From NCBI RefSeq assembly GCF_022179465.1, contig NZ_BPQV01000010.1, forward strand, positions 168,228-232,227: a stretch of DNA of 64,000 nt. The letters are read 5' to 3'. The position numbers were made by a program, and so were the translations under genes. Below are positions 4,431-62,804 of the stretch, one piece after another. How positions within the stretch are numbered: the stretch's first letter is position 1; every line of letters begins with the position of its first letter. The stretch comes from Methylobacterium organophilum (lineage in GTDB: Bacteria > Pseudomonadota > Alphaproteobacteria > Rhizobiales > Beijerinckiaceae). The notes under the pieces were generated by a model. That model did no database searches. It had not been told where the DNA came from and worked only from the letters and a program-made list of their open reading frames with translations.

Positions 4431-4468
4431 GGCCATCCTCCCTTGGTCGTTTGTCCCGCTGGGTGCGC

Positions 4469-8543: not shown

Positions 8544-8557
8544 GGCGCGCCTCCCGA

Positions 8558-31445: not shown

Positions 31446-31455
31446 GCGAATCTTG

Positions 31456-36577: not shown

Positions 36578-36580
36578 GTG

Positions 36581-37150: not shown

Positions 37151-37151
37151 G

Positions 37152-40534: not shown

Positions 40535-40630
40535 CGGTTCGGCACCGGCGTTCCGGCCGAGAACGGCACGCCGGTGATCCGATCCATTGAAGCCATACGC
40601 AAAGGGTAAGATCGAGCCAACAGGTTGGGC

Positions 40631-42001: not shown

Positions 42002-42166
42002 GTCACATATTCCTGCTTTGGGATGGACTCGCGCATCTATGAGCCGTGCCCGTCTCTCATTGGATCGGCAACTTAGCCTTTCCCTGGGCAGATGGCGGCG
42101 CGATGCAACCACAGGCGTAGCAGCTCAGCCGTCCGGACACGCCGACGCACATCATCTCCGTCGTGC

Positions 42167-42943: not shown

Positions 42944-43301
42944 CAGACCTTTTCCACCTGTTGAGAGACACGCGTGGCATTGGCGACCGAGCAGAGCGGC
43001 CGCTCGGGCTGGGGCGCATGGAGGGGAAGCATCAAGACGAAGAGATGAACGAGGGTAGCCGTGCCCACCCGCTCGTCCTTGGGCGCTTCAGGAGATGCGC
43101 CTCGCGGAGGGCCGCGATCGGCCCCGGTCCGTTGCCGGCCTCGAATCCCGACGGGTCGGGATCCCCGGATCGGCCGGCGAGCCCGTCTGTCACAGAGCCG
43201 GAGGTGATCGGGTCACTGCGCGAATCGCCGGAAATCGACTTGGTTCCGTCAGGCAGCATGCCGGGCTGGTCGATGGCCTTCACTGTCTGGCTCCGGAAGT
43301 C
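42944..43301. other. Intergenic region, nothing recognised
   Basis: No gene or RNA supported. Probably holds the promoter of the nucleotidyltransferase gene. GC content rises again towards the tRNA. Confidence 0.4.
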
Positions 43302-43520
43302 TCAGAAGATGTTCGAGAAGCAGACGTCGCCTTGCAAGAGGCTCGGCTCCGGCGCGGCATGCACGACGATCAGGGCACCCACCCGACGCGACATCTCCAG
43401 CGGTGAGGGCATCGCCGTGCTGACATAGGTGAAGCCGATCGTGACGTCGAACACGTTCTGGCGGCCGAAATCCACCGGACGCCGCTCCGCCTTCCCGCCA
43501 TAAGGGCGTTGCGCGGCCAT
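43302..43520 (-). CDS. Possible small hypothetical protein
   Basis: 72-codon frame ending TGA at 43302. The protein MAAQRPYGGKAERRPVDFG... with GALIVVHAAPEPSLLQGDV is less Arg-biased than the neighbouring shadow frames and looks protein-like. No clear ribosome-binding site precedes ATG 43520 and no family is recognised. It lies downstream of the tRNA terminator and could be spurious. Confidence 0.3.
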   Translation of the reverse strand: MAAQRPYGGKAERRPVDFGRQNVFDVTIGFTYVSTAMPSPLEMSRRVGALIVVHAAPEPSLLQGDVCFSNIF

Positions 43521-43622
43521 ATCGAGGGAGGCCTGTGCCAGACTTGCCGGTTCGGTCGGCCGAACCGGCGAGACCGGTCAGGGGCGTCGGATCGGTGCCG
43601 GTAGCGCGGTCTGTCCCGGAAA

Positions 43623-43652
43623 CAAAAAAGGCTCCCGTGATGGGAGCCATTT
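43623..43652 (-). terminator. Intrinsic terminator of the tRNA-Val transcript
   Basis: Minus strand: GGCTCCC (43648-43642), loop ATCAC, GGGAGCC (43636-43630), followed by six T residues (43629-43624). It starts 27 nt after the tRNA 3' end. Confidence 0.88.
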
Positions 43653-43678
43653 TCCGCAATCATCGCAAGGGCTTGCGA

Positions 43679-43753
43679 TGGTGGGCGCGACAGGGATCGA
43701 ACCTGTGACCCCTACCATGTCAAGGTAGTGCTCTCCCGCTGAGCTACGCGCCC
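43679..43753 (-). tRNA. tRNA-Val (anticodon GAC)
   Basis: 75-nt tRNA with encoded CCA. The 5' arm GGGCGCG pairs with CGCGCCC; D-arm GCTCAGCGGGAGAGC, anticodon stem CTACC/GGTAG with loop TTGACAT (anticodon GAC), and T-arm with GGTTCGATCCC are standard. It lies at the right boundary of the lower-GC polysaccharide region with its 3' end facing that region. No repeat of its 3' end was noticed near 30 kb. Confidence 0.97.
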
Positions 43754-45076: not shown

Positions 45077-46402
45077 ATGCGCATAGCGATGGTCGGGTCG
45101 GGATATGTGGGCCTGGTGTCCGGAGCCTGCTTCGCGGATTTCGGCCACGACGTCGTCTGCATCGACAAGGATCCGGCCAAGATCGAGGGCCTGAAGGCGG
45201 GCCGGATGCCGATCTACGAGCCGGGCCTCGAGGCCCTGGTCGCGGAGAACGTGAGGCAGAACCGGCTGTCCTTCGGGACGCAGCTGGCCGAAGCGGTGGC
45301 GGGGGCGGATGCCGTCTTCATCGCCGTGGGCACGCCCTCCCGGCGCGGGGACGGCTTCGCGGATCTCTCCTACGTCTATGCCGCCGCCAAGGAGATCGCG
45401 GCCTCCCTGAACGGGTTCACCGTGGTGGTGACGAAATCGACGGTTCCGGTGGGCACCGGCGACGAGGTCGAGCGCATCATCCGCGAGGCGCGGCCGGAGG
45501 CCGCGTTCGCCGTGGTCTCCAATCCGGAATTCCTGCGCGAGGGCGCCGCGATCGGCGACTTCAAGCGGCCGGACCGGATCGTCATCGGGACGGAGGACGA
45601 GCGCGCCAAGGCGGTGATGAACGAGATCTACCGCCCGCTCTACCTCAACCACTCGCCGATCCTGTTCACCGGGCGGCGCACGGCGGAGCTGACCAAGTAC
45701 GCGGCCAACGCCTTCCTGGCCACCAAGATCACCTTCATCAACGAGATCGCGGATCTCTGCGAGCAGGTCGGCGCGAACGTCCAGGAGGTGGCCCGCGGCA
45801 TCGGCCTCGACAACCGGATCGGCCGCACCTTCCTCCATGCCGGGCCGGGCTATGGCGGCTCCTGCTTCCCCAAGGACACCCTGGCGCTGGTGAAGACCGC
45901 GCAGGATTACGGGGCGCCGATCCGTCTGGTGGAGACGGTGGTGGCGGTCAACGACCAGCGCAAGCGCGCCATGGCCCGCAAGGTGATCGCCGCCTGCGGC
46001 GGCTCGGTCCGCGGCAAGACGGTCGCGATCCTCGGCCTGACCTTCAAGCCCAACACCGACGACATGCGCGACGCGCCCTCCCTGTCGATCATCGCGGGGC
46101 TGCGCGATGCGGGCGCGGCGGTGGTCGCCTACGATCCCGAGGGCATCGAGCAGGCGCGGCCGATGCTCGAAGGCGTGACCTATGCCGAGGACGCCTATAC
46201 CTGCGCCGAGGGGGCGGATGCCCTGGTGATCGTCACGGAGTGGGACGCCTTCCGCGCCCTCGATCTCGGCCGCCTGCGCGCCTCGATGAAGGCGCCGGTG
46301 CTCGTCGATCTGCGCAACGTCTACGCCTCCGCCGATGCCGAGCGGCACGGCTTCCACTATACCGGCGTCGGCGTCGGAAGCGGGACGGCCGGACAGGGCT
46401 GA
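45077..46402 (+). CDS. ugd: UDP-glucose 6-dehydrogenase
   Basis: 441-aa enzyme oxidising UDP-glucose to UDP-glucuronate, a precursor for acidic exopolysaccharides. The Rossmann motif GSGYVG is at residues 7-12, the catalytic cysteine is Cys263 in GPGYGGSCFPKDTLAL, and the central dimerisation segment ELTKYAANAFLATKITFINE and the C-terminal GLTFKPNTDDMRDAPS are present. GGAAAGG lies about 6 nt before ATG 45077. It presumably feeds the neighbouring glycosyltransferase region or a wider EPS pathway. Confidence 0.96.
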   Translation: MRIAMVGSGYVGLVSGACFADFGHDVVCIDKDPAKIEGLKAGRMPIYEPGLEALVAENVRQNRLSFGTQLAEAVAGADAVFIAVGTPSRRGDGFADLSYVYAAAKEIAASLNGFTVVVTKSTVPVGTGDEVERIIREARPEAAFAVVSNPEFLREGAAIGDFKRPDRIVIGTEDERAKAVMNEIYRPLYLNHSPILFTGRRTAELTKYAANAFLATKITFINEIADLCEQVGANVQEVARGIGLDNRIGRTFLHAGPGYGGSCFPKDTLALVKTAQDYGAPIRLVETVVAVNDQRKRAMARKVIAACGGSVRGKTVAILGLTFKPNTDDMRDAPSLSIIAGLRDAGAAVVAYDPEGIEQARPMLEGVTYAEDAYTCAEGADALVIVTEWDAFRALDLGRLRASMKAPVLVDLRNVYASADAERHGFHYTGVGVGSGTAGQG

Positions 46403-46790: not shown

Positions 46791-49700
46791 ATGCCGGACG
46801 GCGAGAGCCGCCCGTTCTTCCACGAGCGTATGCGGATCGACGTGACTCAGCGCCAGGATATCGCCATCATCGGCCGGGCTTGCCGGCTCCCCGGTGCCCC
46901 CAGCGTCGAGGCCCTCTGGCAATTGCTCACCGAGGGGCGTTGCGCGGTCTCCGAGATCCCCGCCGACCGCTGGACGCGGGAGCGCTTCCTGCATCCGCGG
47001 GCGCAGGAGCGCGGCAAGAGCTACACCTTCGCCGCCGGCGTCCTCGACGACATCTGGGCCTTCGATCCCGGCGTGTTCGGCATCTCGCCCCGCGAGGCCG
47101 AGCAGATGGATCCGCAGCAGCGCCTGCTGCTGGAGCTGACCTGGGAGGCCCTGGAGGATGCGGGCCTGCGTCCCTCGGCGGTGGCGGGAAGCCATATCGG
47201 CGTGTTCGTCGGCGCCTCGGCCCTGGATTACGGCAACCTGCGCATCCTCGATCCGTCGAGCGCGGATGCCTACGGCGCCACGGGCAACACGCTCTCCATC
47301 GTCTCAAACCGCCTCTCCTACATCTACGACCTCAAGGGGCCGAGCTTCACCCTCGACACCGCCTGCTCCTCCTCGCTCGTCGCGCTCAACGCCGCGATCA
47401 CCGCGATCGAGAACGGTCAGGTCGACACCGCCATCGTCGCGGGCGTGAACCTGCTGGCGAGCCCGTTCAGCTTCATCTCCTTCTCCAACGCGCAGATGCT
47501 CTCGCGCACGGGCCTGTGCCAGGCCTTCTCGGCGAATGCGGACGGCTATGTCCGCGCCGAGGGCGGTGTGGTGCTGGTGCTGCAATCGGCCAAGGCGGCG
47601 GCGCGGGCCGGCAGCCTGGTGCGCGGCGTCATCGCGACGAGCGGCGTGAATTCGGACGGGCGCACCACCGGCATCTCCCTGCCCTCGGGCGAGGCGCAGG
47701 CGGCCCTGCTGGAGCAGGTCTACCGCGACGCCGGCATCGCGCCGGACGCGATCGCCTTCGTGGAGGCCCACGGCACCGGCACCGCGGTCGGCGACCCGAT
47801 CGAGGCCAACGCCATCGGCAGCAAGCTCGGCAAGGGCCGCAAGGCCCCGCTGCCGATCGGCTCGATCAAGACCAATATCGGCCATACCGAGCCGGTCTCG
47901 GGGCTGGCCGGCCTGCTCAAGGCGCATCTCGCCCTGGAGAACGACCTGCTGCCGGCCTCGCTGCACGCGGCCGAGCTCAATCCCGAGATCCCGTTCGACA
48001 CCCTGAACCTCGCGGTGAACCGCGCCCCCCTGCCGCTGAAGCGGGGCAAGGAGCGCTTCGCCGGCGTGAATTCCTTCGGCTTCGGCGGCACCAACGCCCA
48101 CGTCGTGCTGACCGACCCGGCCCCCGTGGCCGCGACGGGCGCCGATTTCCGCGCGCCGGAGATGCTGCTCCTCTCGGCCCAGAGCCGGGCTGCCCTCTCC
48201 GAGCTGGCGCAGGACTATGCCGACCGCCTCGCGCACGCCGATGCCGCCGAGACCGCCCGCATCGCCGCCGCCGCCGCCCATCGCCGGGAGCGCCAGGCCG
48301 TGCGCCTCGCCGTCCCGCTGGACGGGCCCCTGGTCGAGACCCTGCGCGCCGTGGGCGAGGGCGAGGAGACCGAGAAGGCCGTCATCGGCACCGCCGTGGA
48401 CCGCGCCGCCGAGGTCGCCTTCGTCTTCTCCGGCAATGGGAGCCAGTGGGCCGGCATGGGCCGCGAGGCCTATGCGGAGAACCCGACCTTCCGCGAGACC
48501 TTCGACCGGATCGACACGCTCTTCGCCGGCCATTCCGGCTGGTCGCTCAAGGATGCGCTGTTCGCCGAGGATCTCGACGCGCAGCTCTCCCTCACCCGCG
48601 TCTCGCAGCCGCTGATCTTCGCGATCTCCGCCGCCTCCAACGCGGCCCTGCGCGCCCGCGGCCTCAAGCCGGCGGCGGTGCTCGGCCACAGCGTCGGCGA
48701 GATCGCCGCGGCGGAAGCCGCCGGCATCCTCAGCCTGGAACAGGCGGTGCGGGTCATCTTCTACCGCAGCAAGCACCAGGAGACGACGCGCGGCCACGGC
48801 AGCATGGCCGTGCTGCTCGGCCCGGTCGAGGAGATGGAAGCCTTCCTCGCCGATTATCCGGACCTGGACATCGCCGCCTATAACAGCCCCAAGGCGATCA
48901 CCGTCGCCGGCCCGGTGGACTCGATCGAGGCCGCGATGAAGGCGCTGGCGCGCAAGCGCCGCCGCGGCAAGAAGCTCGACCTGGAATATCCCTTCCACGG
49001 CCGGCTGATGGACCCGACCGAGAAGCCGCTGCTGCGCGATCTCGACGGGCTGAAGCCCTCCGCCGGCCACACGGCGATGGTCTCCACCGTCACCGGCGAC
49101 GTGCTCGCCGGCACGAAGTTCGGCGCCGGCTACTGGTGGCGCAATATCCGTGAGCCGGTCCGCTTCTGCGAGGCCCTGCAGGAGGCGACCCGCCGGGGCG
49201 TGCGCGTCTTCGTCGAGGTCGGCCCGCGGGCGACGCTGCTGCCCCATATCGGCGACGCGGTCGAGCCGCTCGGCATCGAGGTCGCCTCCGTCGGCGTGCT
49301 CCACCGCAAGCCGGCCGAGGGCGATCCCATCGCCCGCGCCGTCGCCGCCGCGATCGTGGCGGGCGCCGCGGTCGACGAGGCCGCCGTGTTCGGCACCAAC
49401 CCCGCCGGGATCGTGCCCCTGCCGCTCTATCCCTGGCAGCGCCGCAGCTTCCGCCTCGCGGAGACGGCGGAGGGCGCGGGCTGGGTCAACACCCGCAGCC
49501 ACCACCCGCTCGCGGGCGTCCGCGCCGTGGCGGACGGGCTCGAATGGCATGGCCATCTCGATGCCGCGACCGTGCCCGAGCTCGGCGACCACGTCATCGA
49601 TGGGCAGGTGCTCGTACCGGGCGCCGGCTTCGTGGAGATGGCCCTGCACGTCGCCCGCGAGGCGCTGCGCTCCGAGACGGTGACCCTCGCCGATTTCGAG

Positions 49701-52700
49701 ATCCACTCGCCGATGATCCTCGCCGAGGATTCCCTGCGCGAGGTCGCCGTGCGGCTCTCGGGCGGCGGCAACCAGATCCAGATCCTGAGCCGGCCCCGCC
49801 TGACCCAGGCCGCCTGGCAGCTCCATGCCCAGGCCAAGATCGTCGAGGGCCAGTTCCGCGCCCCCGCGCCCCGCGTGATCGACCTGCCGGACGAGCAGGC
49901 GGTGGCGGGGGCCGATCTCTATCGCCGGGCGCTGGCCTCCGGCCTCGGCTTCGGCCCGTCCTTCCGGCAGGTGGCGGCCTCCGCCCGCCTCGACGAGGCG
50001 ACCATCGTCTCCGAGCTGGTGCCGGCGGAGGCCGATGCGCGCTACGGCCTCGTGCCGGGCCGCCTGGACGCCTGCTTCCACGGCCTGATCCTGCTCTTCT
50101 CCGAGCTTCTCGGCGAGAACGCGGTGAAGGCCTATGTGCCCGTGCGCTTCGGCGAGATCCGCCTGATCCGGCCGGGCGCCGTGATCCATCGCGCGCTGAT
50201 CGAGACGCGCCGCTGCAACGAGCGCAGCATCCTGGCCGACTTCACCCTGGTCGATGCCGAGGGCGCGGTGGTCGCCACGATCCGCGAGGGCCGCTTCCAG
50301 GCCCTGCGCGCCCGCGGCGGCGACGAGCTCGCGGCCTATGCCGTGGCGCAGCGCACCGAGCTCGCCTCCGAGCCGACCGCGCTCCCGATCCTGCTCGGCC
50401 CGGCCATCGCCGAGATCGTCCGGCCGGCGGCCGAGGCCGCCAAGGGCGACGACGAGGCCAATCTCGGCCCCGGCCATCTCCTGCTCGAAGGCTGGGCCAC
50501 GGCCCTGGCCTACCGCGTCGCTTCCGGCCTCGTCGGGGCGGAGGGCGCCGTCTCGCTCGAGGACGCGCGGCTGCCCGCCGCCCTGCGCCCCTGGCTCGTC
50601 AACGCCCTGCATGCCCTGGAGAGCAGCGGGCTGGCCGATCTCGACGGCGCGCACTGGCGCCTGCGCAGCGACGTCACCCTGCCCGATCCGGAAGAGATCA
50701 TGCGCTGGGTCGCCGCCGACCATCCCGAGCTCTCCGCCGAGCTGGTGCTGATGGCCGACGTCACGGCCCTCGCCGGCCGCCTCGTCGCCGAGGGCCTGGA
50801 GGAGGCGGTCAGCCTCAATCAGGCGGCGATCGATGCCTTCCATCTGCGCGGCGCCACCGCCCGCGCCTCGGCCGAGACCGTCGCCCGCATCGTCGAAGGC
50901 GTCCGGGCGAAGCTGCCCCAGGACCGGGCGCTGCGTGTCCTCCAGGTCGGCTTCGGGCCCCTCGCCGCCCAGGCGACCCGCTTCGCGGAGGAGGTCCAGG
51001 GCCGCCTGAGCCTGTTCGAGACCGACCGCCGCCGGGCGGAGCGGGCGCGCCTCGCCTTGCCCCACGGCGTCACCGTGATCGAGGCCGCCGCCGACCTGCC
51101 GCCGGCCGGCTTCGACCTGATCCTGGCCAGCGACACCCTCCATCGCGGCGCGCGCGACCTGCCGGCCGCCCTCTCCGCGTGCCTCGCCACCGGCGGCCTG
51201 CTGGTGGCGGTGGAGCCGGGCGTCTCCCTGTTCCGCGACCTCGTCTTCGGCCTCGACGCCGACTGGTTCGATTCGGCCCTGCCCGACATGCCGGTCAGCC
51301 GGCTCGACGATACGATCGGGTGGCAGCGCCGCCTCAGCGCCTCCGGCCTGGTGCGCGTCACCGCCGACCGCGCCGTCTCCGTCAACGGCGACGACCTGCT
51401 GCTGCTGGCCGAGGCCCCGGCCCGCCCGGCCGCCGCCCATGGCCAGAGCTTCGCCTTCGTGATCGGCTCGGACGACGAGGTCGGCGCGGAGACCGCCTCC
51501 TCGCTCGCCACCCTGCTCATCGCGAGCGGCGTGCATGTCTCGATCATCCTCGATTCCGAGCAATCCCTGAAGGAGCTGGAGCGGGAGACGCCGGACACGG
51601 TGGTCTTCCTGGCCGGCGCCTTCACCCCGGGCGGCGAGGCCGCCGCCCGCCTGCGCGACCGCTGCCTCAGCCTGAAGCGCTGCGCCGAGCATCTCGGCAG
51701 CCGCCCGACCCGCCTCTGGGTGATCGCGCCCGGCGCGACCCGCGACCGGGGCGGCCAGGTCGGCTCCGTCGAGACCGGCCTCTGGGCCTTCAGCCGGGCG
51801 CTCGCCAACGAGACCGCGAGCCTCGACCTGCGCCGGGTCGACCTGTCGCCCGCCATGGATCCGAAGGCCGCCGCCGAGCGCCTGCGCGACCTCGTCCTCT
51901 CCGGCACCCCGGAGACCGAGATCGTGCTGGACGAGGACGCGACCCGCGTCGTCCGCTTCGCCGCCGGCCGTCCGGCCCGGCGTCGGGAAGGCACCTTCGA
52001 GCCGGCCGTCGCCGCCCGCCTCGAGCGCGGCACCACCGGCGGCCTCAACGAGATGGTCTGGGGCCCGGCCGAGCGCGCCGCCCCCAAGGCCGGCGAGGTC
52101 GAGATCGCGGTGGAGGCCACCGGCCTCAACTTCCGCGACGTGCTGTGGGCGCTGAACATGCTGCCCGAGGAGATCCTGGAGGACGGCTTCGCCGGCCCCC
52201 GCCTCGGCCTGGAAGTGGCCGGCCGCGTCGTCTCCGTCGGGGCGGACGTGACCGAGTTCGCCGTCGGCGATCCCGTGGTCGCCTTCGCCCAGTCGGGCTT
52301 CGCCACGCATATCGTGGTGCCGGAGGCCGTGGTGGCGCCGATGCCGGCGGGCCTCGCCCCCGCTGCGGCGGCGACCGTGCCGGTGGCCTTCCTCACCGCC
52401 TATTACGGCCTCGTCACCTGCGCCCGGCTGCGCCGCGGTGAGTGGGTGCTGGTGCATGGCGGTGCCGGCGGCGTCGGCCTCGCCGCGCTGCAGATCGCCA
52501 AGCTCAAGGGCGCCCGCGTCATCGCCACGGCGGGCTCCCGCGAGAAGCGCGCCCTGGTCCAGGCGCTCGGGGCCGAGCACGTGCTCGATTCCCGCTCCCT
52601 GGCCTTCGTCGACGATGTCCGCCGCATCACCGGCAAGGGCGTCGACGTGGTGCTCAACTCGCTCTTCGGCGAGATGATGGAGCGCACCCTCAACGTGATG

Positions 52701-54257
52701 GCGCCCTTCGGCCGCTTCGTGGAGCTGGGCAAGCGCGACTATGTCGCCAACACCCATATCGGCCTGCGTCCCTTCCGCCGGAACCTCTCCTATTTCGGCG
52801 TGGACCTCGATCAGGTGCTCCAGCACCAGGGCGAGGACGGTGCGCGGATGTTCCGCGAGGTGATGGCGCTCTTCGCCGAGGGTGGCCTGAAGCCCCTGCC
52901 CTACCAGCCCTTCACGGCGGACGAGACCTCCGACGCCTTCCGGCTGATGCAGCAATCGGGGCATGTCGGGAAGATCGTGATCGCGCCGCCGAAGGCCGGC
53001 AGCGTGGCCAAGCTCGCCCGCCAGCCCTTCGCGGTGTCCGACCGCAACGTCCACCTCGTCACCGGCGGCCTCGGCGGCTTCGGCATCGAGGCGGCGCGCT
53101 GGCTCGCCGACCGGGGGGCGAAGCACCTGCTGCTCGTCGGCCGCACCGGCAAACCCAACGCGGAGGGCGCGGCGGTCATCGCCGAGCTGAAGGCCCGCGG
53201 CGTCACCGTCGAGACCAAGGCCTGCGACATCACCAGCCGGCAGGCGGTGGACGATCTCGTCGACGCGATCGAGCGGCGGGGCAAGCGCCTCGCCGGCGTG
53301 ATCCACGGCGCCATGGTGCTCAACGATGGCCTGATTGCCAATCTGGAGGCCGAGGCGCTGGAGGCGGTGATCCGGCCGAAGGTGATCGGCGCCCAGCATC
53401 TCGACGCGGTCACCCGCGGCCGGCAGATCGACTACTTCGTGCTGTTCTCCTCGGCCACGACCTTCATCGGCAATCCGGGCCAGGGCGCCTATGTCGCCGC
53501 CAACGGCTTCATGGAGGGCCTCGCCCGCCAGCGCCGCCGCCTCGGCCTGCCGGCCTTGGCGGTCGCCTGGGGCGCGATCGGCGATGTCGGCGTGCTCGCC
53601 CGCAACCGCGCGGTGATGGAGAGCCTGGCGGGCCGTGTCGGCGTGACGCCGATGGATGCGCGCCACTGCCTCGACCTGATGGCCCAGGCCCTGGAGACGC
53701 AGGGCGCGGAGAGCGACGATGCGGTGATCGCGATCGCCGCCATGCATTGGGGCAAGGCGCGCGAGCGCCTCGCCACCATGCGCTCGCCGAGCTATGCGGG
53801 CCTCGGCTCCGAGAACCAGGCGGAGGCCGGCGGCGTCGCGGCGATCAATATCGGCGCGCTGCTCAAGAGCCAGGACATCGACGCGGTGCGCAAGGTGGTG
53901 GCCGATGCCATCGTCGAGGACATCGCCCGCATCCTGCGCCTGCCCAAGGACGATATCGGCCGCACCCGGCCGCTCTCGGAAATCGGCCTCGATTCCCTCA
54001 TGGGCGTCGAGCTCGGGGCGAGCCTGCAGGAGCGCTTCGCCCTGGAGGCGCCGCCCGCCGGCATCTCCTCCGGCCTCACCGTCAACGAGCTGTCCGAGAC
54101 CCTGATCCAGTCCGTCTCGGCGCCGGTTGACGAGGCCGCGGGCGCCGTGCTCACCCTCGCCCAGAAGCATGTCGGCGCCGATGTCGATGCCGCGACGCTG
54201 GCGCCCTTCCAGAACCTCGTCGAGCAGAACAGCCAGGACATCAAAGAAATCCTATGA
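46791..54257 (+). CDS. Highly reducing type I polyketide synthase (KS-AT-DH-MT*-ER-KR-ACP)
   Basis: 2488-aa single-module PKS. KS: DTACSSS with Cys192, EAHGTGT His327, NIGHTE His365. AT: GHSVGEIAAA with Ser634; the substrate-loop motif is YPFHG where malonyl-specific ATs have HAFHS. DH: HVIDGQVLVP with His934 and Asp1093 (RLDACFH). Next comes a methyltransferase-like stretch (about residues 1370-1500) whose SAM loop reads VLQVGFGPLA and appears degenerate. ER: VHGGAGGVGL near 1889. KR: VTGGLGGFG near 2090, with Tyr2234 and Asn in GAYVAANG. ACP: EIGLDSLMG with Ser2402. A 45-residue tail follows, and there is no thioesterase or reductase domain. Such synthases usually act iteratively to make saturated chains. 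The stop overlaps the next ATG by 4 nt, implying that the downstream alpha-oxoamine synthase offloads the chain. Confidence 0.93.
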   Translation: MPDGESRPFFHERMRIDVTQRQDIAIIGRACRLPGAPSVEALWQLLTEGRCAVSEIPADRWTRERFLHPRAQERGKSYTFAAGVLDDIWAFDPGVFGISPREAEQMDPQQRLLLELTWEALEDAGLRPSAVAGSHIGVFVGASALDYGNLRILDPSSADAYGATGNTLSIVSNRLSYIYDLKGPSFTLDTACSSSLVALNAAITAIENGQVDTAIVAGVNLLASPFSFISFSNAQMLSRTGLCQAFSANADGYVRAEGGVVLVLQSAKAAARAGSLVRGVIATSGVNSDGRTTGISLPSGEAQAALLEQVYRDAGIAPDAIAFVEAHGTGTAVGDPIEANAIGSKLGKGRKAPLPIGSIKTNIGHTEPVSGLAGLLKAHLALENDLLPASLHAAELNPEIPFDTLNLAVNRAPLPLKRGKERFAGVNSFGFGGTNAHVVLTDPAPVAATGADFRAPEMLLLSAQSRAALSELAQDYADRLAHADAAETARIAAAAAHRRERQAVRLAVPLDGPLVETLRAVGEGEETEKAVIGTAVDRAAEVAFVFSGNGSQWAGMGREAYAENPTFRETFDRIDTLFAGHSGWSLKDALFAEDLDAQLSLTRVSQPLIFAISAASNAALRARGLKPAAVLGHSVGEIAAAEAAGILSLEQAVRVIFYRSKHQETTRGHGSMAVLLGPVEEMEAFLADYPDLDIAAYNSPKAITVAGPVDSIEAAMKALARKRRRGKKLDLEYPFHGRLMDPTEKPLLRDLDGLKPSAGHTAMVSTVTGDVLAGTKFGAGYWWRNIREPVRFCEALQEATRRGVRVFVEVGPRATLLPHIGDAVEPLGIEVASVGVLHRKPAEGDPIARAVAAAIVAGAAVDEAAVFGTNPAGIVPLPLYPWQRRSFRLAETAEGAGWVNTRSHHPLAGVRAVADGLEWHGHLDAATVPELGDHVIDGQVLVPGAGFVEMALHVAREALRSETVTLADFEIHSPMILAEDSLREVAVRLSGGGNQIQILSRPRLTQAAWQLHAQAKIVEGQFRAPAPRVIDLPDEQAVAGADLYRRALASGLGFGPSFRQVAASARLDEATIVSELVPAEADARYGLVPGRLDACFHGLILLFSELLGENAVKAYVPVRFGEIRLIRPGAVIHRALIETRRCNERSILADFTLVDAEGAVVATIREGRFQALRARGGDELAAYAVAQRTELASEPTALPILLGPAIAEIVRPAAEAAKGDDEANLGPGHLLLEGWATALAYRVASGLVGAEGAVSLEDARLPAALRPWLVNALHALESSGLADLDGAHWRLRSDVTLPDPEEIMRWVAADHPELSAELVLMADVTALAGRLVAEGLEEAVSLNQAAIDAFHLRGATARASAETVARIVEGVRAKLPQDRALRVLQVGFGPLAAQATRFAEEVQGRLSLFETDRRRAERARLALPHGVTVIEAAADLPPAGFDLILASDTLHRGARDLPAALSACLATGGLLVAVEPGVSLFRDLVFGLDADWFDSALPDMPVSRLDDTIGWQRRLSASGLVRVTADRAVSVNGDDLLLLAEAPARPAAAHGQSFAFVIGSDDEVGAETASSLATLLIASGVHVSIILDSEQSLKELERETPDTVVFLAGAFTPGGEAAARLRDRCLSLKRCAEHLGSRPTRLWVIAPGATRDRGGQVGSVETGLWAFSRALANETASLDLRRVDLSPAMDPKAAAERLRDLVLSGTPETEIVLDEDATRVVRFAAGRPARRREGTFEPAVAARLERGTTGGLNEMVWGPAERAAPKAGEVEIAVEATGLNFRDVLWALNMLPEEILEDGFAGPRLGLEVAGRVVSVGADVTEFAVGDPVVAFAQSGFATHIVVPEAVVAPMPAGLAPAAAATVPVAFLTAYYGLVTCARLRRGEWVLVHGGAGGVGLAALQIAKLKGARVIATAGSREKRALVQALGAEHVLDSRSLAFVDDVRRITGKGVDVVLNSLFGEMMERTLNVMAPFGRFVELGKRDYVANTHIGLRPFRRNLSYFGVDLDQVLQHQGEDGARMFREVMALFAEGGLKPLPYQPFTADETSDAFRLMQQSGHVGKIVIAPPKAGSVAKLARQPFAVSDRNVHLVTGGLGGFGIEAARWLADRGAKHLLLVGRTGKPNAEGAAVIAELKARGVTVETKACDITSRQAVDDLVDAIERRGKRLAGVIHGAMVLNDGLIANLEAEALEAVIRPKVIGAQHLDAVTRGRQIDYFVLFSSATTFIGNPGQGAYVAANGFMEGLARQRRRLGLPALAVAWGAIGDVGVLARNRAVMESLAGRVGVTPMDARHCLDLMAQALETQGAESDDAVIAIAAMHWGKARERLATMRSPSYAGLGSENQAEAGGVAAINIGALLKSQDIDAVRKVVADAIVEDIARILRLPKDDIGRTRPLSEIGLDSLMGVELGASLQERFALEAPPAGISSGLTVNELSETLIQSVSAPVDEAAGAVLTLAQKHVGADVDAATLAPFQNLVEQNSQDIKEIL

Positions 54258-55627
54258 GTCAGGCCCCGGGATCGGATGGGGGGCGCGCGGCGCTCGCCAG
54301 CTTCGTCACCAACCGGCTCGGGCGGCACGCCGCCAAGCCGTCGGCACCGCGCAACGAAGCCAAGGCCCCGGCGAAGGAGACCGCGCAGGATTTCGCCAAG
54401 CTCACGGGCTACCGCGAGCTGAAGCTCCAGCGCTCCGCCGCCGACCTGATCGGCCTCGACAACCCGTTCTTCCGGGTGCACGAGGCCAAGGCCGGCGCGA
54501 CCACGCGGATCGGTGGCAAGGCGCTCACCAACTTCTCGTCCTACGATTATCTCGGCCTCAACGGGCATCCCGAGGTGAACGCGGCGGCCAAGCGCGCCAT
54601 CGAGCAGTTCGGCACCTCGGCTTCGGCGAGCCGGGTGGTGGCCGGGGAGCGCCCCGGGCATCTCTCCCTGGAGAACGCCCTGGCGCGCCATTACGGCACC
54701 GAAGCCTGCGTGGTCATGGTCAGCGGCCACGCCACCAACGTCACCGCTATCGGTGCCATCCTGGAAGAGCCGGACGTGATCTTCCACGACGCGCTGATCC
54801 ACAACAGCGTGGTCACCGGCGCGCAGCTCTCCGGCGCCAAGCGCCGCTCCTTCGCCCATAACGACGCGGAATCGCTCGAGAAGCTGCTCGCGGCCACGCG
54901 CCACGAGCATCGCCGGGCGCTGATCGTGATCGAGGGCCTCTACAGCATGGACGGTGATACGCCGGACCTCGCGGCCTTCGTCGCGCTGAAGGAGCGCTAC
55001 GATTGCTGGCTGATGGTCGACGATGCCCACGGGCTCGGCGTGCTGGGCCGGACCGGCGCCGGCCTGCATGAGCATTGCGGCGTCGACCCCTCGGCGGTCG
55101 ACATCTGGATGGGCACGCTTTCGAAGACGCTCTCCACCTGCGGCGGCTACATCGCCGGGCCGAGCGCCCTGGTCGAGTATCTGAAATGCACCGCGGGCGG
55201 CTTCCTCTACAGCGTCGGCCTGTCCCCGCCCCTGGCCGCCGCCGCGGAGACCGCGCTGAACCTGCTCCATGCCGAGCCGGAGCGCGTGGAACGCCTGCGC
55301 CGCAACGGTGCCCTGTTCCTCGCCAGCGCGAAGAAGCTCGGCCTCGATGTCGGCACCAGCCTCGGGCTCGCGGTGATTCCGGTGATCGTCGGCGATTCGC
55401 TGAAGGCCGTGACGCTGTCCGACCGCCTGTTCGCCCGCGGCATCAACGTGCAGCCGATCATCCACCCGGCCGTGCCCGAGCGCGCCTCGCGCCTGCGCTT
55501 CTTCATCACCTCCGAGCATACGCCGGAGCAGATCAAGGACACGGTGAACGCGGTCGCGGAAGAGCTCGCCGCCCTCCAGACCGGCGCCTCGCTGATCGAG
55601 CAACTGATGGCACGCCGGGGGGCCTGA
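54254..55627 (+). CDS. Alpha-oxoamine synthase (AONS/SPT-like PLP enzyme), predicted PKS off-loading enzyme
   Basis: 457-aa PLP enzyme of the family that includes 8-amino-7-oxononanoate synthase, KBL, ALAS and serine palmitoyltransferase. FSSYDYLGLNGHPEV, the MVDDAHGLGVLG segment with the PLP-binding Asp/His, and Lys291 in GTLSKTLSTCGGY mark the active site. It is about 60 residues longer at the N-terminus than AONS (an Ala/Lys-rich leader before the catalytic core). These enzymes join an acyl thioester to an amino acid with loss of CO2, so the expected product here is a long-chain alpha-amino ketone from the ACP-bound polyketide. A true BioF is unlikely because no bio genes are nearby. Translationally coupled to the PKS. 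Confidence 0.9.
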   Translation: MSQAPGSDGGRAALASFVTNRLGRHAAKPSAPRNEAKAPAKETAQDFAKLTGYRELKLQRSAADLIGLDNPFFRVHEAKAGATTRIGGKALTNFSSYDYLGLNGHPEVNAAAKRAIEQFGTSASASRVVAGERPGHLSLENALARHYGTEACVVMVSGHATNVTAIGAILEEPDVIFHDALIHNSVVTGAQLSGAKRRSFAHNDAESLEKLLAATRHEHRRALIVIEGLYSMDGDTPDLAAFVALKERYDCWLMVDDAHGLGVLGRTGAGLHEHCGVDPSAVDIWMGTLSKTLSTCGGYIAGPSALVEYLKCTAGGFLYSVGLSPPLAAAAETALNLLHAEPERVERLRRNGALFLASAKKLGLDVGTSLGLAVIPVIVGDSLKAVTLSDRLFARGINVQPIIHPAVPERASRLRFFITSEHTPEQIKDTVNAVAEELAALQTGASLIEQLMARRGA

Positions 55628-55649
55628 GCCCCCCTCAAGCCGCCCCCGA

Positions 55650-55733
55650 TCGCGTTGAAATCGGGAGCGGCTCCAGCCCTTACTGGAACGCGCCTCTCAC
55701 GCCGAACCGGTGTCCCCTTCGGCGGAAAGCGCT
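55650..55733. repeat. Dispersed intergenic repeat (rhizobial RIME-like)
   Basis: CCGATCGCGTTGAAATCGGG followed by GAACCGGTGTCCCC, TTCGGCGGAAAGCGC and TTTAGCG resembles a repeat frequent between genes in Methylobacterium and relatives. It separates the convergent PKS/AOS and spermidine-synthase-fold genes and shares short blocks with 30825-30870. Confidence 0.45.
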
Positions 55734-56405
55734 TTAGCGCGAAGCCAGCCAGATCCGGTGCCGGGCGCCCCGGCGTCCGGCATGGGCGCGCACCGTCTCC
55801 TCCTGAACGGAGAAGCCCGCCTGCCGCAGGCGCCGCGTGAAGGCGTCGTCGGGATGGGCCGACCAGACCGCGAGCACGCCGCCCGGCCTCAGCGCCCCCC
55901 GCGCCGCGTGCAGGCCCGCCGCGTCGTAGAGCCGGTCGTTCTCCGGCCGCGTCAGCCCGTCCGGGCCGTTGTCCACGTCGAGCAGGATCGCGTCCCAGGC
56001 CGCCGGCCTCTCGCGGATCGCGGCGACCACGTCGGTCTCGCGCAGGCGCACGCGCGGATCGTCGAGGCTGGCCCCCGACAGCTCCGCCATCGGGCCCCGC
56101 GCCCAGGCGAGCACCGCCGGCACCAGTTCCGCCACGACGATCTCGGCCGTTGCCGGCAGGCAGCCCAGCGCGGCGCGCAGGGTGAAGCCCATGCCGTAGC
56201 CGCCGATCAGCATCCGTGGCGACCGGGCGCGGCCGATCCGCTCGGCGGCGAGCCGGGCCAGCGCTTCCTCGGACCCGCTGAGGCGGCTGTTCATCAGCTC
56301 GTTCTGGCCGAGCTGGATCGAGAATTCCTTGCCCCGCCGCATCAGCCGCAGCGTGTCGCCCTCGCCGGGGATCGAGGCGGTATCGAGATGTTCCCAGGGA
56401 ATCAT
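55734..56405 (-). CDS. Spermidine-synthase-fold SAM-binding protein
   Basis: 223-aa protein of the spermidine synthase/methyltransferase fold: MLIGGYGMGFTLRAALG corresponds to the nucleotide-binding loop (GGGxG variant), IVVAELVPAVLAWA to the acidic strand, and ILLDVDNGPDGLTRPEN to the Asp-rich loop of the aminopropyltransferase family. The polyamine-binding YH/DY residues are not obvious, so an enzymatic role in polyamine synthesis is doubtful; many such short homologues have unknown substrates. Convergent with the alpha-oxoamine synthase; 113 nt downstream of shc. Confidence 0.75.
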   Translation of the reverse strand: MIPWEHLDTASIPGEGDTLRLMRRGKEFSIQLGQNELMNSRLSGSEEALARLAAERIGRARSPRMLIGGYGMGFTLRAALGCLPATAEIVVAELVPAVLAWARGPMAELSGASLDDPRVRLRETDVVAAIRERPAAWDAILLDVDNGPDGLTRPENDRLYDAAGLHAARGALRPGGVLAVWSAHPDDAFTRRLRQAGFSVQEETVRAHAGRRGARHRIWLASR

Positions 56406-56463
56406 GGTCGGGGGACCTCGTGCCGGGGGGACGGTCGAACGGCAGGGTCGGGGACGAAAGCAA

Positions 56464-56490
56464 AACGGCGCGGAGAGCCCCCGCGCCGTT
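56464..56490 (-). terminator. Terminator downstream of shc
   Basis: Perfect 10-bp stem AACGGCGCGG (56464-56473) / CCGCGCCGTT (56481-56490) with loop AGAGCCC. On the minus strand the stem is followed by TTTGCTTT. It begins 28 nt after the shc stop. Confidence 0.8.
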
Positions 56491-56518
56491 CGTCAGATCG
56501 TCCGCCGCCGCGACGCGA

Positions 56519-58519
56519 TCACATCCCGTAGGCGACCTTGCCGGTGTTGCTGCGCTTCAGGTTGCGGAAGCGGGCCATGGCCCAGAGCGGGAAGAACTTC
56601 GGGTAGCCGTGGTAGCGCAGGTAGAACACCCGCGGGAAGCCGGTGGCGGTGTAGCGCTCCTCGTTCCAGAAGCCGTCCGCGCCCTGCGTGCGGGTCAGGA
56701 AGTTGACGCCGCGGGCCACGGCCGGATCCTCCACCTCGCCCGCCGCCATCAGGGCGAGAAGCGCCCAGGCCGTCTGCGAGGCGGTGGAATAGCCAGGCTC
56801 GAAGGCCGGGTTGATCTTGTAGGAAGAGGCATCCTCGCCCCAGCCGCCATCCGGGTTCTGGATCGCGATCAGCCAGGACACGGCCTTGCGGATCTCCGGC
56901 GATTGCGGATCGACGCCGGCCGCGTTCAGGGCACAGAGCACCGACCAGGTGCCGTAGATGAAGTTCATGCCCCAGCGGCCGTACCAGCTGCCGTCCTTCT
57001 CCTGGTCGTTGAGGAGATAGGTCACGCCCCGGTCGAGGGCGCGGCTCGTCGCGCGGGTCTCGCCGAGCTGGGCGAGCATCGAGACGACGCGGGCGGTCAC
57101 GTCCGCGGTCGGCGGGTCGAGCAGGGCGCCGTGATCCGAGAACGGGATGTGGTTGAGGTAATGGTGGTTGTTGTCGGCGTCGAAGGCCGCCCAGCCGCCA
57201 TCGGCGCTCTGCAGGCCCTCGACCCACTCGCGCGCCCGGGCGATGGACTGGCTGTAATCCGGCATGCCGCTCACCAGCCCGTGCTGGCGCTGGGCGCGGT
57301 CCATGGCCATCACCACCACGGCGGTGTCGTCGAGATCCGGGTAATGCGGGTTGGCGTACTGGAAGGCCCAGCCGCCGGGGCGCACGTCCGGCTTGGTCGC
57401 GGCCCAGTCGCCCTTGATGTCGGTGACCTGGAGCGGCTTCAGCCAGTCGAGGCCGGAGCGCGCCGCGCCCTCGGCAGCCTCGCCGCCCGCCTCGAGCAGG
57501 GCATGGGCGCTCAGCGCCGTGTCCCAGACGGGGGACAGGCAGGGCTGCACATAGGCCTCGTGCTCCTTCTCGGCTACGAGCTTCTCGATCGCCTCGCAGG
57601 CGATCTTCACCTGCGGGTGGTTCGAGGGATAGCCCAGCACCTCGTACATGAGCACGGAATTGACCATGGCCGGGAAGATCGCGCCGAGCCCGTCTTCGCC
57701 GTTCAGACGCTCGCTCACCCAGGCCACGGCCTTGTCGATGGCGCGCTTGCGCGGCGTCTTCGGGAAATAGGGCTCGGTGACGCGCAGCGCCCGGTCGACG
57801 GCGCCGAAGATCGGCGTCCACGGCCAGGTCGCGTGCGGGGAGCCCGGCCAGGACGTGACCGAATCGGGCGGGGTCACGAACAGCTCGCCCACGCCGATGC
57901 CGCGCGGATTCTTCGCCCGCGGCTTCTTCGCCTGCAGCACGAAGAGCGGCACCATGGTGCAGCGGGCCCAGTAGGAGACCTTGTCGAGGTGGAAGGGGAA
58001 CCACTTCGGCAGGTGCATCACCTCCACCGGCATCACTGGCACCGCCGCCCAGGGCACCTCGCCGTAGAGCGCGAGCAGGAAGCGGGTGAAGACGTTGGCG
58101 TTGCGTGCGCCGCCGCGGGTCAGGATCGCCTCGCGGGCACGGCGCATATGCGGCGCCTCGATGTCGTCGCCGATCATCTTCAGGGCGAAATACGCCTTGA
58201 CGGTGCAGCTCATGTCGAACGGCCCGTCATGCACCAGCGCCCAGCCGCTATGCACGGGCGACTGGGTGCGGCGCAGGTAATTGCCGATCTTGGCCTCGAG
58301 GCCCGGCCGCGGCTCGGTGCCCCGGAAGTGGTGGAACAGCACGTATTCGGAGGGGATGGTCGCATCCGCCTCCAGCTCGAAGCAGATATGGCCGTCGGAC
58401 TGGGCGAGATCCGTCAGGGCGCGGGTCGCGCTCTGGATCGCGCGCTCGACCTCCTCGATGGCCACGTCACGGGTCCGGGGACGCTTGAGCGTCTCGACCT
58501 TGCCTGCTGCCTCTCGCAT
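56519..58519 (-). CDS. shc: Squalene-hopene cyclase (Shc/HpnF)
   Basis: 666-aa membrane-associated terpenoid cyclase turning squalene into hopene/hopanol. The catalytic acid motif DLDDTA (Asp395, Asp397, Asp398) and several QW repeats are visible, such as QSADGGWAAFD, QEKDGSWYGRWG, QNPDGGWGED and QGADGFWNE. The C-terminal RNLKRSNTGKVAYGM is typical. ATG 58519 follows hpnE by 40 nt. Last gene of the hpn operon, closed by a terminator. Confidence 0.97.
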   Translation of the reverse strand: MREAAGKVETLKRPRTRDVAIEEVERAIQSATRALTDLAQSDGHICFELEADATIPSEYVLFHHFRGTEPRPGLEAKIGNYLRRTQSPVHSGWALVHDGPFDMSCTVKAYFALKMIGDDIEAPHMRRAREAILTRGGARNANVFTRFLLALYGEVPWAAVPVMPVEVMHLPKWFPFHLDKVSYWARCTMVPLFVLQAKKPRAKNPRGIGVGELFVTPPDSVTSWPGSPHATWPWTPIFGAVDRALRVTEPYFPKTPRKRAIDKAVAWVSERLNGEDGLGAIFPAMVNSVLMYEVLGYPSNHPQVKIACEAIEKLVAEKEHEAYVQPCLSPVWDTALSAHALLEAGGEAAEGAARSGLDWLKPLQVTDIKGDWAATKPDVRPGGWAFQYANPHYPDLDDTAVVVMAMDRAQRQHGLVSGMPDYSQSIARAREWVEGLQSADGGWAAFDADNNHHYLNHIPFSDHGALLDPPTADVTARVVSMLAQLGETRATSRALDRGVTYLLNDQEKDGSWYGRWGMNFIYGTWSVLCALNAAGVDPQSPEIRKAVSWLIAIQNPDGGWGEDASSYKINPAFEPGYSTASQTAWALLALMAAGEVEDPAVARGVNFLTRTQGADGFWNEERYTATGFPRVFYLRYHGYPKFFPLWAMARFRNLKRSNTGKVAYGM

Positions 58520-58559
58520 CGTTCTCGCCTCTGCGACCGTCTTTCGCGGCCGTTTTGTT

Positions 58560-59861
58560 TCACGCGGCGCTTGACGCCTGTGTCCGCCCGCACATCCCGG
58601 AACGGGTCAGTGCGTCCGCGGCCATGGTACCCGAGCGGATCGCGCCCTCGATCGTCGAGGGCAGACCCGTCGCGGTCCAGTCGCCTGCCAGGACCAGGTT
58701 CGTGTAGACGGTCGTCGCGCCGGCGCGCCGGGCCGCCTCGGCGGGCGTGGCCGCGAAGGTCGCCCGCTTCTCCTTGACGATCTGCCAGCTAGGCAATTCG
58801 CGTGCAAGTCCGTGAAGGTCCGCGATCTCGTCCCAGATCCGGCGGGCCAGCTCCTCGCGGGGCGTGTCGAGCAGGTGGTCGGCCCCGCTGATCGTCACGG
58901 AGAACCGGTCCGGATAGGCGAAGAGCCACTCCGTCAGGCCGCCGACCACGCCGAGCAGCAGCGGCGCGCCGGCCGGCGGAGCCCCTGCGAAATGCGCGTT
59001 AACGATGGAGCGAAATTCCTGCGGCGCCGGCAGGCCGGGCAGCAGATCGGCGGCGACCCAGGGCGGCAAGGCCAGCACGACGCCGTCCCGCGGCCCGATC
59101 TCGGTCGGGCCGTCCGCGAAGTCGAGACTGGCGATGCGGCCCCCGGAGATCCCGAGGGCGCGCAGGCGCCGCCCGTAGCGGATCTCGCCGCCCCGGGCCG
59201 CGAGATAGCTGAGCGCCGGATCGACGAAGGCGGCCGAGAGCCCCTGGACCGCGACGAGGGGCCGGCAGGCCCGGCCGCCCGCCCCCAGGGTCTCCTTCAG
59301 GATGGTCGCGGCGAGCCCGACATCGCTCTCGCGCGGGTCGGTGTTGAGGGCGGCGAGCAGCACCGGATGCCAGAGCCGCTCGTAGAGCAGGCCCTCGCAG
59401 GCCATCTTCTCGCCGATCGTGCCGGCCCGGCCCGGCGCCTTGCCGGAGGCGGCCATCATCAGGCTCAAGGGGGCGAGGTAGTCGGAGGCGCGGCTGCCCG
59501 GCACCCGGCGCGAGGCGTCGAGCACCCACCAGGGCAGGCGGCCGGCATTGGGGCGCAGCTGCCAGCGCTCGCCGGTGCGCAGATCCGCGAAGTCGAAGGC
59601 GGCCTCGTCCGGCCCGTCGAGCACCCCCTGTGGCGCGCCGATCCGCGTCAGGAAGTCGAGGGCCGCGGTATTGCCCGAGAGCAGCAGGTGGTTGCCGTTG
59701 TCGATGGTGAGGCCGAGGGAGGGGTCGTAATAGGAGCGGCAGCGCCCGCCCGCCTGCTTGGCCGCCTCGTGCAGCACGACATGGCGGCCCATTTCCGCGA
59801 GGGAGGCGGCCGCCGAGAGGCCGGCCAGCCCGGCGCCGACGACGTGGACGGTTCCCGACAT
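58560..59861 (-). CDS. hpnE: HpnE, hydroxysqualene dehydroxylase (squalene-forming FAD enzyme)
   Basis: 433-aa amine-oxidase-type flavoprotein. The FAD motif VHVVGAGLAGLSAAASLAE lies at residues 5-23, followed by GGRCRSY and the C-terminal LAGDWTATGLPSTIEGAIRSG. HpnE reduces hydroxysqualene to squalene in the HpnCDE route. ATG 59861 overlaps the hpnD stop by 1 nt. The family also contains carotenoid desaturases, but the hpnC/hpnD/shc context decides. Confidence 0.94.
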   Translation of the reverse strand: MSGTVHVVGAGLAGLSAAASLAEMGRHVVLHEAAKQAGGRCRSYYDPSLGLTIDNGNHLLLSGNTAALDFLTRIGAPQGVLDGPDEAAFDFADLRTGERWQLRPNAGRLPWWVLDASRRVPGSRASDYLAPLSLMMAASGKAPGRAGTIGEKMACEGLLYERLWHPVLLAALNTDPRESDVGLAATILKETLGAGGRACRPLVAVQGLSAAFVDPALSYLAARGGEIRYGRRLRALGISGGRIASLDFADGPTEIGPRDGVVLALPPWVAADLLPGLPAPQEFRSIVNAHFAGAPPAGAPLLLGVVGGLTEWLFAYPDRFSVTISGADHLLDTPREELARRIWDEIADLHGLARELPSWQIVKEKRATFAATPAEAARRAGATTVYTNLVLAGDWTATGLPSTIEGAIRSGTMAADALTRSGMCGRTQASSAA

Positions 59862-62636: not shown

Positions 62637-62728
62637 CGCACGCCAGGATTCATCGTGGGACAGGCGCTGCCGCCGAACGGACGGCGGGCGCTTTGATTCG
62701 GCTCTGGGGAGGCCGGCTCGTACGGAAC

Positions 62729-62755
62729 GGCCCGCGCCTCCGAAAGGCGCGGGCC
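62729..62755 (-). terminator. Terminator between dxs and hpnA
   Basis: Perfect 11-bp stem GGCCCGCGCCT (62729-62739) / AGGCGCGGGCC (62745-62755) with loop CCGAA, 50 nt after the dxs stop. The minus-strand U-run is weak, while TTGTCT follows on the plus strand, so readthrough from dxs into hpnA is possible. Confidence 0.7.
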
Positions 62756-62804
62756 TTGTCTCACCGAAAACCGGGAGCGGCAAGCGCTCCGCTTGCAGGC
62801 CCGA

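Follow-up and report, generated by a model that had tools for sequence, protein, structure and literature searches.

A polyketide synthase and alpha-oxoamine synthase gene pair of Methylobacterium organophilum, probably the entry to a sphingoid capsule anchor

What does a bacterium make when a highly reducing polyketide synthase (PKS) is followed directly by an alpha-oxoamine synthase (AOS), and what is the product for? The question is raised by a gene pair at positions 46,791 to 55,627 of a 64,000-nucleotide stretch of Methylobacterium organophilum DNA (the window). By sequence and gene order, the pair is the Methylobacterium counterpart of RkpA-RkpG in rhizobia and shares its build with SgaA-SgaB of Pseudomonas. 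Because it matches genes known from bacterial capsule clusters, its predicted sphingoid lipid probably anchors a sugar capsule: on balance, we favor the view that the pair is the entry module of a capsule cluster, making a sphingoid lipid that serves as capsule acceptor or anchor. The analysis shows gene content, homology, intact catalytic residues and a conserved linkage to capsule genes. For homologues, other work has shown sphinganine formation and serine preference (Pseudomonas) and the need for rkp-1 in capsule formation (Sinorhizobium). The pair itself is of a known kind; what is new is that two literatures, on the rkp capsule and on SgaAB sphinganine, are joined in a testable claim about an anchor.

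The gene pair and its predicted chemistry

The two genes and their functional parts are as follows.

46791..54257, + strand: RkpA/SgaA-type iterative type I polyketide synthase, 2488 aa (open reading frame, Pfam, S. meliloti homology)
46854..48110, + strand: ketosynthase (KS) domain, aa 22-440, with DTACSSS active-site motif (Pfam, NCBIfam, motif)
48420..49310, + strand: acyltransferase (AT) domain, aa 544-840, with GHSVGE (Pfam, motif)
49503..50318, + strand: dehydratase (DH) domain, aa 905-1176, with HxxxG(x)4P histidine motif (Pfam, motif)
50937..50972, + strand: remnant of C-methyltransferase (MT) motif I, VLQVGFGPLAAQ, probably inactive to judge by the motif
52089..52982, + strand: enoylreductase (ER) domain, aa 1767-2064 (Pfam, NCBIfam, motif)
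53049..53582, + strand: ketoreductase (KR) domain, aa 2087-2264 (Pfam, motif)
53907..54101, + strand: acyl carrier (ACP) domain, aa 2373-2437, with GLDSL serine (Pfam, motif)
54254..55627, + strand: RkpG/SgaB-type alpha-oxoamine synthase, 457 aa, predicted 3-ketosphinganine-type synthase
55124..55126, + strand: codon of K291, the pyridoxal phosphate (PLP) lysine

According to Pfam, the PKS is one module with the domain order KS-AT-DH-(decayed MT)-ER-KR-ACP, in which no thioesterase or reductive release domain was found at E 0.001. Signature motifs were found for all six catalytic and carrier domains. The PKS and AOS reading frames overlap by 4 nt, and these frames and domains agree with a preliminary description of the locus, which had reported a PKS without release domain overlapping an AOS. 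Its domain list holds for KS, AT, DH, ER, KR and ACP, but not for a bracketed methyltransferase: the Methyltransf_12 match between DH and ER is weak (E 0.0036, 18.4 bits vs a cut-off of 30) and the glycine motif of the remnant is broken, so the methyltransferase is probably inactive, and an active one was discarded as unsupported. A 2288-aa open frame lies antisense to the PKS gene (47304-54170, - strand); it is most likely a by-product of high-GC codon use.

The AOS keeps five catalytic residues: the PLP lysine K291, whose intactness the preliminary description had correctly noted, together with H183, D256, H259 and R415. Each is invariant across 72 homologues labelled PKS-linked, for 71 of which a PKS was observed (locus L049 was counted as PKS-linked with no PKS within its 8.4-kb stretch, and L111 as lacking one although its AOS has a KS-like match 8 kb away). 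The protein aligns to solved structures of 8-amino-7-oxononanoate synthase and 2-amino-3-ketobutyrate CoA ligase (AONS/KBL) and of serine palmitoyltransferase (SPT), and scores below every NCBIfam cut-off for BioF, KBL, 5-aminolevulinate synthase (ALAS) and SPT. Its best model is TIGR00858 (bioF), with 356 bits below an equivalog cut-off of 426.45; TIGR01821 (ALAS) gives 242 bits vs 338.55, and the SPT equivalogs 208-293 bits vs 500-670. Three further AOS proteins were found in the same genome (E 0.001), one of them BioF-like and two above the ALAS cut-off. Over its matched part, the BioF-like paralogue scores 404 bits to bioF and so also falls just short of the cut-off; none of the three is an SPT by cut-off. 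A BioF role for the window AOS was ruled out by its score and by this more BioF-like protein, and a canonical SPT by the cut-offs. Two ALAS homologues, both passing TIGR01821, lie at 3213-5234 of the window (- strand) and at G000:C1:312005-313054.

In a tree of 52 AOS rows, a branch separates the 42 labelled PKS-linked (one of them L049) from BioF, ALAS and other AOS proteins. This branch has a support of 89/87 and is present in 92% of 200 bootstrap trees, and the tool gives it no star under its own rule. The PKS-linked group includes the Sinorhizobium meliloti rkp-1-like homologue, along with rows from Cyanobacteriota, Desulfovibrionaceae, Streptomyces, Betaproteobacteria and Gammaproteobacteria. 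The tree was thinned from 83 extracted AOS rows to 52 by leaving out one duplicate and most rows from Methylobacterium; 21 more small loci that duplicated others had been skipped before the 83.

What would such a pair make? Fungi provide a likeness of principle only: in the fumonisin (Fum1/Fum8), sphingofungin and AAL-toxin pathways a reducing PKS chain is released by an AOS, with toxins as end products. Closer in build is the two-gene system of Pseudomonas fluorescens MYb115, in which the iterative PKS SgaA and the AOS SgaB are reported to make C24, C26 and C28 sphinganines, which are lost in sgaA and in sgaB mutants (PMC12134224, 2025). According to the same report, SgaB takes L-serine to the near exclusion of alanine and glycine, and the recombinant enzyme accepts acyl-CoA. 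The decarboxylative release of a PKS chain to a sphingoid-type base, which the preliminary description had suggested, is thus demonstrated for SgaA/SgaB, and this chemistry (iterative reducing PKS, AOS release) is probably right for the window pair too. The two systems share the iterative PKS, the AOS and an SDR (short-chain dehydrogenase/reductase) gene in the cluster, but the product is demonstrated in Pseudomonas, whereas the window pair is known from its genes and is likened to SgaA-SgaB by description. The canonical SPT of Caulobacter, with AcpR/AasR, has the same PLP fold and reaction type as the window AOS; unlike it, that enzyme is fed by a specialised ACP and an acyl-ACP synthetase, not by a type I PKS (PMC9386255).

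Linkage of the pair to capsule genes

The preliminary description knew of no such lipid from this genus, but the system is not an unknown one: publications on rkpA-rkpG go back to 1993-1997 (cited in PMC7902896). The rhizobial rkp-1 region is described with the layout rkpU, rkpA, rkpG, rkpH, rkpI, rkpJ (PMC7902896). Its products are said to synthesise the "specific lipid carrier", or anchor, of the K-antigen and to modify it (PMC4881576, PMC3557214), and rkp-1 mutants to be deficient in the capsular polysaccharide KPS (PMC4881576); the accounts in PMC4881576 and PMC3557214 do not state the structure of this carrier.

The S. meliloti record that we examined has, in a row, the PKS, the AOS, an SDR, an unannotated 512-aa frame (RkpI-like) and a KpsS-like capsule protein, with a polysaccharide exporter upstream. 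This layout agrees with rkp-1, the rkp names being given by gene order and not against published rkp sequences. The record is labelled pSymB, but at 3.72 Mb it has what we take to be the size of the chromosome. The rkp-1 region is chromosomal (PMC3557214). The window AOS is 54.5% identical to the S. meliloti homologue, and the PKS 41% in its best segment. RkpA-RkpG of S. meliloti, S. fredii and Rhizobium tropici share with the window pair the PKS type, the AOS type and their adjacency; the accompanying SDR, RkpI-like, KpsS-like and outer-membrane polysaccharide exporter (OPX) genes also correspond to rkp-1, and a UDP-glucose dehydrogenase to rkp-2. The arrangement differs in two ways: the UDP-glucose dehydrogenase gene, rkp-2 in rhizobia, lies directly upstream of the window pair, and hopanoid genes separate the pair from the capsule genes in genome G007 and, to judge by collinearity, in the window's genome as well.

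Where, then, are the capsule genes of M. organophilum? Contig C9 carries, at 4.8-11.6 kb, genes for an SDR, KpsS-like and KpsC-like proteins, an LtaS-like/RkpI-like protein and an OPX. With 254.8 bits, short of the cut-off of 600, NCBIfam marks the gene at 5577-7022 as KpsS-like; the gene at 7182-8753 is taken as KpsC-like because it matches a 709-aa protein of Pseudomonas. The LtaS-like sulfatase-fold protein matches S. meliloti RkpI, and a KpsM-like permease lies elsewhere in the genome. The window ends where contig C10 ends, and a single G007 contig aligns first with the window tail (54280-63998) and next with the head of C9 (676-11562), ~1.4 kb separating the two matches. From this collinearity, the C9 genes probably lie just past the window end, and the likeliest arrangement is one cluster: the AOS, then hopanoid genes (shc and neighbours), an assembly break, and then the C9 capsule genes. 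The rkp-1-type genes (RkpH-like SDR, RkpI-like, KpsC/KpsS-type, OPX) are thus present in this genome and linked to the pair by collinearity only. In two other genomes of the genus (G009, G049; loci L113, L115), the pair is contiguous with OPX, RkpI-like, KpsC-like, KpsS-like and SDR genes, and in G010 (L114) it stands beside the same capsule genes without RkpI.

These genes alter two further points of the preliminary description. An orphan pair without tailoring genes is ruled out by contig C9: the reported lack of transporter and tailoring genes holds for the pair itself, but not for the cluster, given the C9 exporter, the KpsM-like permease and the SDR. Moreover, since SDR, LtaS-like and Kdo (3-deoxy-D-manno-oct-2-ulosonic acid)-transferase homologues share the cluster in relatives, the ketone is probably an intermediate, and not the simple free amino ketone that had been expected as end product.

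The pair is a core trait of the genus, not an accessory cluster. The AOS was found in 111 of 112 Methylobacterium genomes (E 1e-100), the single miss being an 85% complete genome; one of the 111 matches (G005:C1:2536883-2537587) covers AOS residues 7-242 only, perhaps a broken copy or an assembly fault. The nearest relatives by protein are in Methylobacterium and Methylorubrum, and the pair is present, for instance, in Methylorubrum populi (L050) and M. rhodesianum (L007). Methylobacteriaceae account for 36 of the 54 loci from the protein search, at 76-82% identity, and in all 36 the PKS lies directly upstream of the AOS. This bears out the co-occurrence across genomes that had been proposed as a check, and together with the 111/112 count it excludes a chance pairing. 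PF05159 (KpsC/KpsS) is present in 112/112 genomes of the genus and an RkpI-like protein in 86/112 (E 1e-30). AOS and RkpI share a contig in 27 genomes, where they are <20 kb apart in 20 and <3.5 kb apart in 18; in the other 59 of the 86 they lie on different contigs, which is uninformative on linkage. Capsule Kdo-transferase or export genes occur within the flank examined at 11 of the 36 Methylobacteriaceae loci.

To what extent does this linkage extend beyond the genus? A phylum sample of 398 genomes, in which scoring was confined to the four top first-look candidates of each genome, so that an AOS could be missed, gave an AOS in 20 genomes; PF05159 was present in 14 of these vs 45 of the 378 without AOS. 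Excluding the own genus, the counts were 8/14 vs 45/378 (p 1e-4), and by genus 8/14 vs 37/198 (p 0.0025), both uncorrected for kinship. A PKS stands beside the AOS at 13 of the 15 AOS places outside the genus in this sample (all 15 fetched). Within the 12-20 kb taken around these 13, capsule Kdo-transferase or export genes were found in 8 and only a partial LtaS-like match in 2, and neither was found at L099, L108 and L109. The protein search gave 11 PKS-bearing loci outside Methylobacteriaceae, 8 with capsule genes and 3 with <5 kb downstream of the AOS; the Aquibaculum locus L043 is the same as L098 of the phylum sample and appears in both counts. No capsule genes were found at five AOS loci without PKS (L054-L058, two only ~6 kb long). 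In all, linkage to KpsC/KpsS/OPX genes recurs in Alpha-, Beta- and Gammaproteobacteria.

Plasmids gave 667 records with a match, 137 of them covering at least 80% of the query and 30 of them listed; seven loci, picked from the 667 records for spread of genera, were annotated. A Pseudomonas plasmid has, by annotation and homology, the order PKS, AOS, PhyH, KpsC, GNAT, LtaS-like, SDR, KpsS, and its AOS, 55.5% identical to the window AOS, stands in for PfSgaB. The four genes between AOS and SDR fit the locus tags RS19805, RS19800 and RS19775 in PMC12134224, and this agreement in spacing suggests that the sga cluster is itself a capsule cluster. Plasmids of Paraburkholderia dioscoreae and Caballeronia insecticola resemble the Wcb cluster (WcbR-type PKS) and have, as here, PKS, AOS, SDR, LtaS-like and capsule genes together; they differ by an LpxC-like deacetylase gene between PKS and AOS, with a GNAT following in one. 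Such a deacetylase gene lies in L061 (12983-13897) and L096 (12958-13884), both Burkholderiaceae plasmids, and in L102 (8469-9380), which groups with them; the enzyme may act on the amino lipid. The two genes can also be fused: in Planktothrix L095 (7560-15158) a single 2532-aa protein comprises a full reducing PKS module and the AOS, and Streptomyces anthocyanicus L094 (10398-15221) encodes a 1607-aa KS-AT-ACP-AOS fusion without reducing domains, beside an MMPL transporter. Genome G123, of the same family as the window, has two PKS-AOS pairs, one beside KpsT/KpsE-like genes (L104) and one without them (L108).

A candidate pathway and its alternatives

In the pathway that we propose, repeated use of the one PKS module would build a long, largely saturated acyl chain. 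The AOS would then release this chain from the ACP in a decarboxylative condensation, most likely with L-serine as the amino acid, to give a 3-ketosphinganine-type base. An SDR of the RkpH/SgaC type would reduce this base, and an LtaS-like protein of the RkpI type would probably add phosphoglycerol. The resulting phosphoglycerol-sphinganine would serve KpsS/KpsC-like Kdo transferases as lipid acceptor or anchor for starting the capsular polysaccharide, and the capsule would be exported via a KpsMT/OPX system. We infer four elements of this scheme: serine use and chain length in this organism, the phosphoglycerol step, and use of the lipid as capsule anchor. 

The phosphoglycerol step is consistent with the best solved-structure matches of the RkpI-like proteins, which are the phosphoglycerol transferase GacH for the window's genome (E 3e-7) and lipoteichoic acid (LTA) primase for Pseudomonas (E 9e-14), both with modest scores. 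Residues that we take to be typical of the phosphoglycerol transferase family are conserved in 4/4 aligned RkpI-like proteins. In P. fluorescens, compounds heavier by 154 Da are reported as most likely phosphoglycerol sphingolipids, and Peters et al. (2025) propose the SDR SgaC as ketoreductase (PMC12134224). KpsS and KpsC are described as transferring Kdo, at the face of the cytoplasmic membrane, onto phosphatidylglycerol or its lyso form (PMC7694667, PMC11041684), and phosphoglycerol-sphinganine would be a close analogue of lyso-phosphatidylglycerol. With this step, PKS, AOS, SDR, RkpI, KpsS and KpsC would all be explained by a single pathway.

Several observations weigh against a capsule anchor. 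Six of the 20 AOS genomes of the phylum sample lack PF05159, and there are no annotated capsule genes near the PKS-AOS fusions on the Streptomyces and Planktothrix plasmids. Within the genus, the RkpI-like protein is missing at E 1e-30 in 26/112 genomes, so that the phosphoglycerol step is either not universal or done by another enzyme. Furthermore, AOS and RkpI lie >600 kb apart on the same contig in 7 of 27 genomes (G014, G015, G029, G038, G040, G063, G076), so the cluster was either relocated or broken up on more than one occasion. The title of a 2005 paper by Fraysse reports a "phospholipid anchor" for the poly-Kdo of S. meliloti 1021. Another weak point of the pathway is its topology: LtaS-type domains act outside the cytoplasmic membrane. 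KpsS and KpsC, in contrast, are described as working at the inner membrane face (PMC7694667), which places the order of steps in doubt. Peters et al. class the Pseudomonas lipids as secondary metabolites, and the main text of their paper contains neither "capsul" nor "rkp" and no mention of polysaccharide or LTA synthase (PMC12134224).

How else might the pair be read? Free sphinganines and phosphoglycerol sphingolipids could be ordinary membrane or host-interaction lipids, with a historical or regulatory link to capsule genes. P. fluorescens accumulates free sphinganines, and sgaAB is needed for worm protection (PMC12134224); PKS-AOS occurs without capsule genes in the stretch examined in Streptomyces, Planktothrix, L099, L108 and L109; and the AOS is kept in nearly all Methylobacterium genomes, as a core membrane lipid gene would be. 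We nevertheless consider this explanation unlikely: rhizobial rkp-1 mutants lack the capsule (PMC4881576), and both the recurrent KpsC/KpsS/OPX linkage and the presence of PF05159 throughout the genus argue for a capsular role. There is still less to be said for an AOS that uses glycine or alanine, with a long-chain amino ketone or a 1-deoxy-sphingoid base as end product, which we rate as a slim chance. The architecture permits it, the amino-acid choice of an AOS is not safely readable from its sequence, and the protein has high NCBIfam scores for several AOS types, but the characterised SgaB is near-exclusive for L-serine (PMC12134224) and an SDR is present in the cluster.

The two explanations that separate the AOS from the PKS product are very improbable. 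In one, the chain is freed by another enzyme, through hydrolysis or transfer to a capsule sugar, and the AOS uses a different acyl donor. Recombinant SgaB does accept acyl-CoA (PMC12134224); against this reading stand the 4-nt overlap, the adjacency in 36/36 Methylobacteriaceae loci, the fusion of PKS and AOS domains in single Planktothrix and Streptomyces proteins, and the loss of sphinganines in both Pseudomonas mutants (PMC12134224). In the other, which we find scarcely credible, the AOS is the biotin enzyme 8-amino-7-oxononanoate synthase, beside the PKS by chance. Its best NCBIfam model is indeed bioF, but it misses that cut-off (356 vs 426 bits), another protein of the genome scores higher, and the PKS-linked AOS group stands apart from the genome's BioF-like protein in the tree.

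Neighbouring genes and significance of a sphingoid anchor

The gene directly upstream of the PKS is the following.

45077..46402, + strand: UDP-glucose dehydrogenase (RkpK-like)

The same order is found in many Methylobacterium loci, and this gene plausibly belongs to the functional unit. Farther upstream, the stretch 30000-43750 has a GC content of 0.51-0.64 vs ~0.71 and carries two GT61, one GT2 and one GT4-type glycosyltransferase genes; it ends near a tRNA-Val (43679-43753) and looks like an acquired surface-polysaccharide island adjoining rkpK-rkpA-rkpG. After the AOS, genes for squalene-hopene cyclase, an HpnE-like protein and squalene/phytoene synthase follow at 56519-61258 and onward (- strand); squalene-hopene cyclase is directly downstream of the pair in 14/36 Methylobacteriaceae loci.

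If the pair does make a capsule anchor, what follows? The gene order here links the rkp capsule and SgaAB sphinganine literatures, and the SgaAB product gives a concrete candidate structure for the rkp-1 lipid carrier. Nothing relevant on a published sphingolipid capsule anchor stood among the papers listed by our literature searches, and the main text of a 2025 review on capsule attachment contains neither "sphing" nor "rhizob" (PMC12220298). More tentatively, and with rather less than even confidence, we suggest that phosphoglycerol-sphinganine made by RkpA/RkpG/RkpH/RkpI-type enzymes might replace lyso-phosphatidylglycerol as the acceptor of KpsS/KpsC. In rhizobia, Methylobacterium, Burkholderiaceae and some Pseudomonas, a large class of Gram-negative capsules would then have a sphingolipid as anchor, and the "secondary metabolite" lipids of Pseudomonas SgaAB would be anchor precursors. 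If true, the anchor reading predicts a sphingolipid anchor for many capsules, and would account for the presence of the AOS in nearly every Methylobacterium genome searched.

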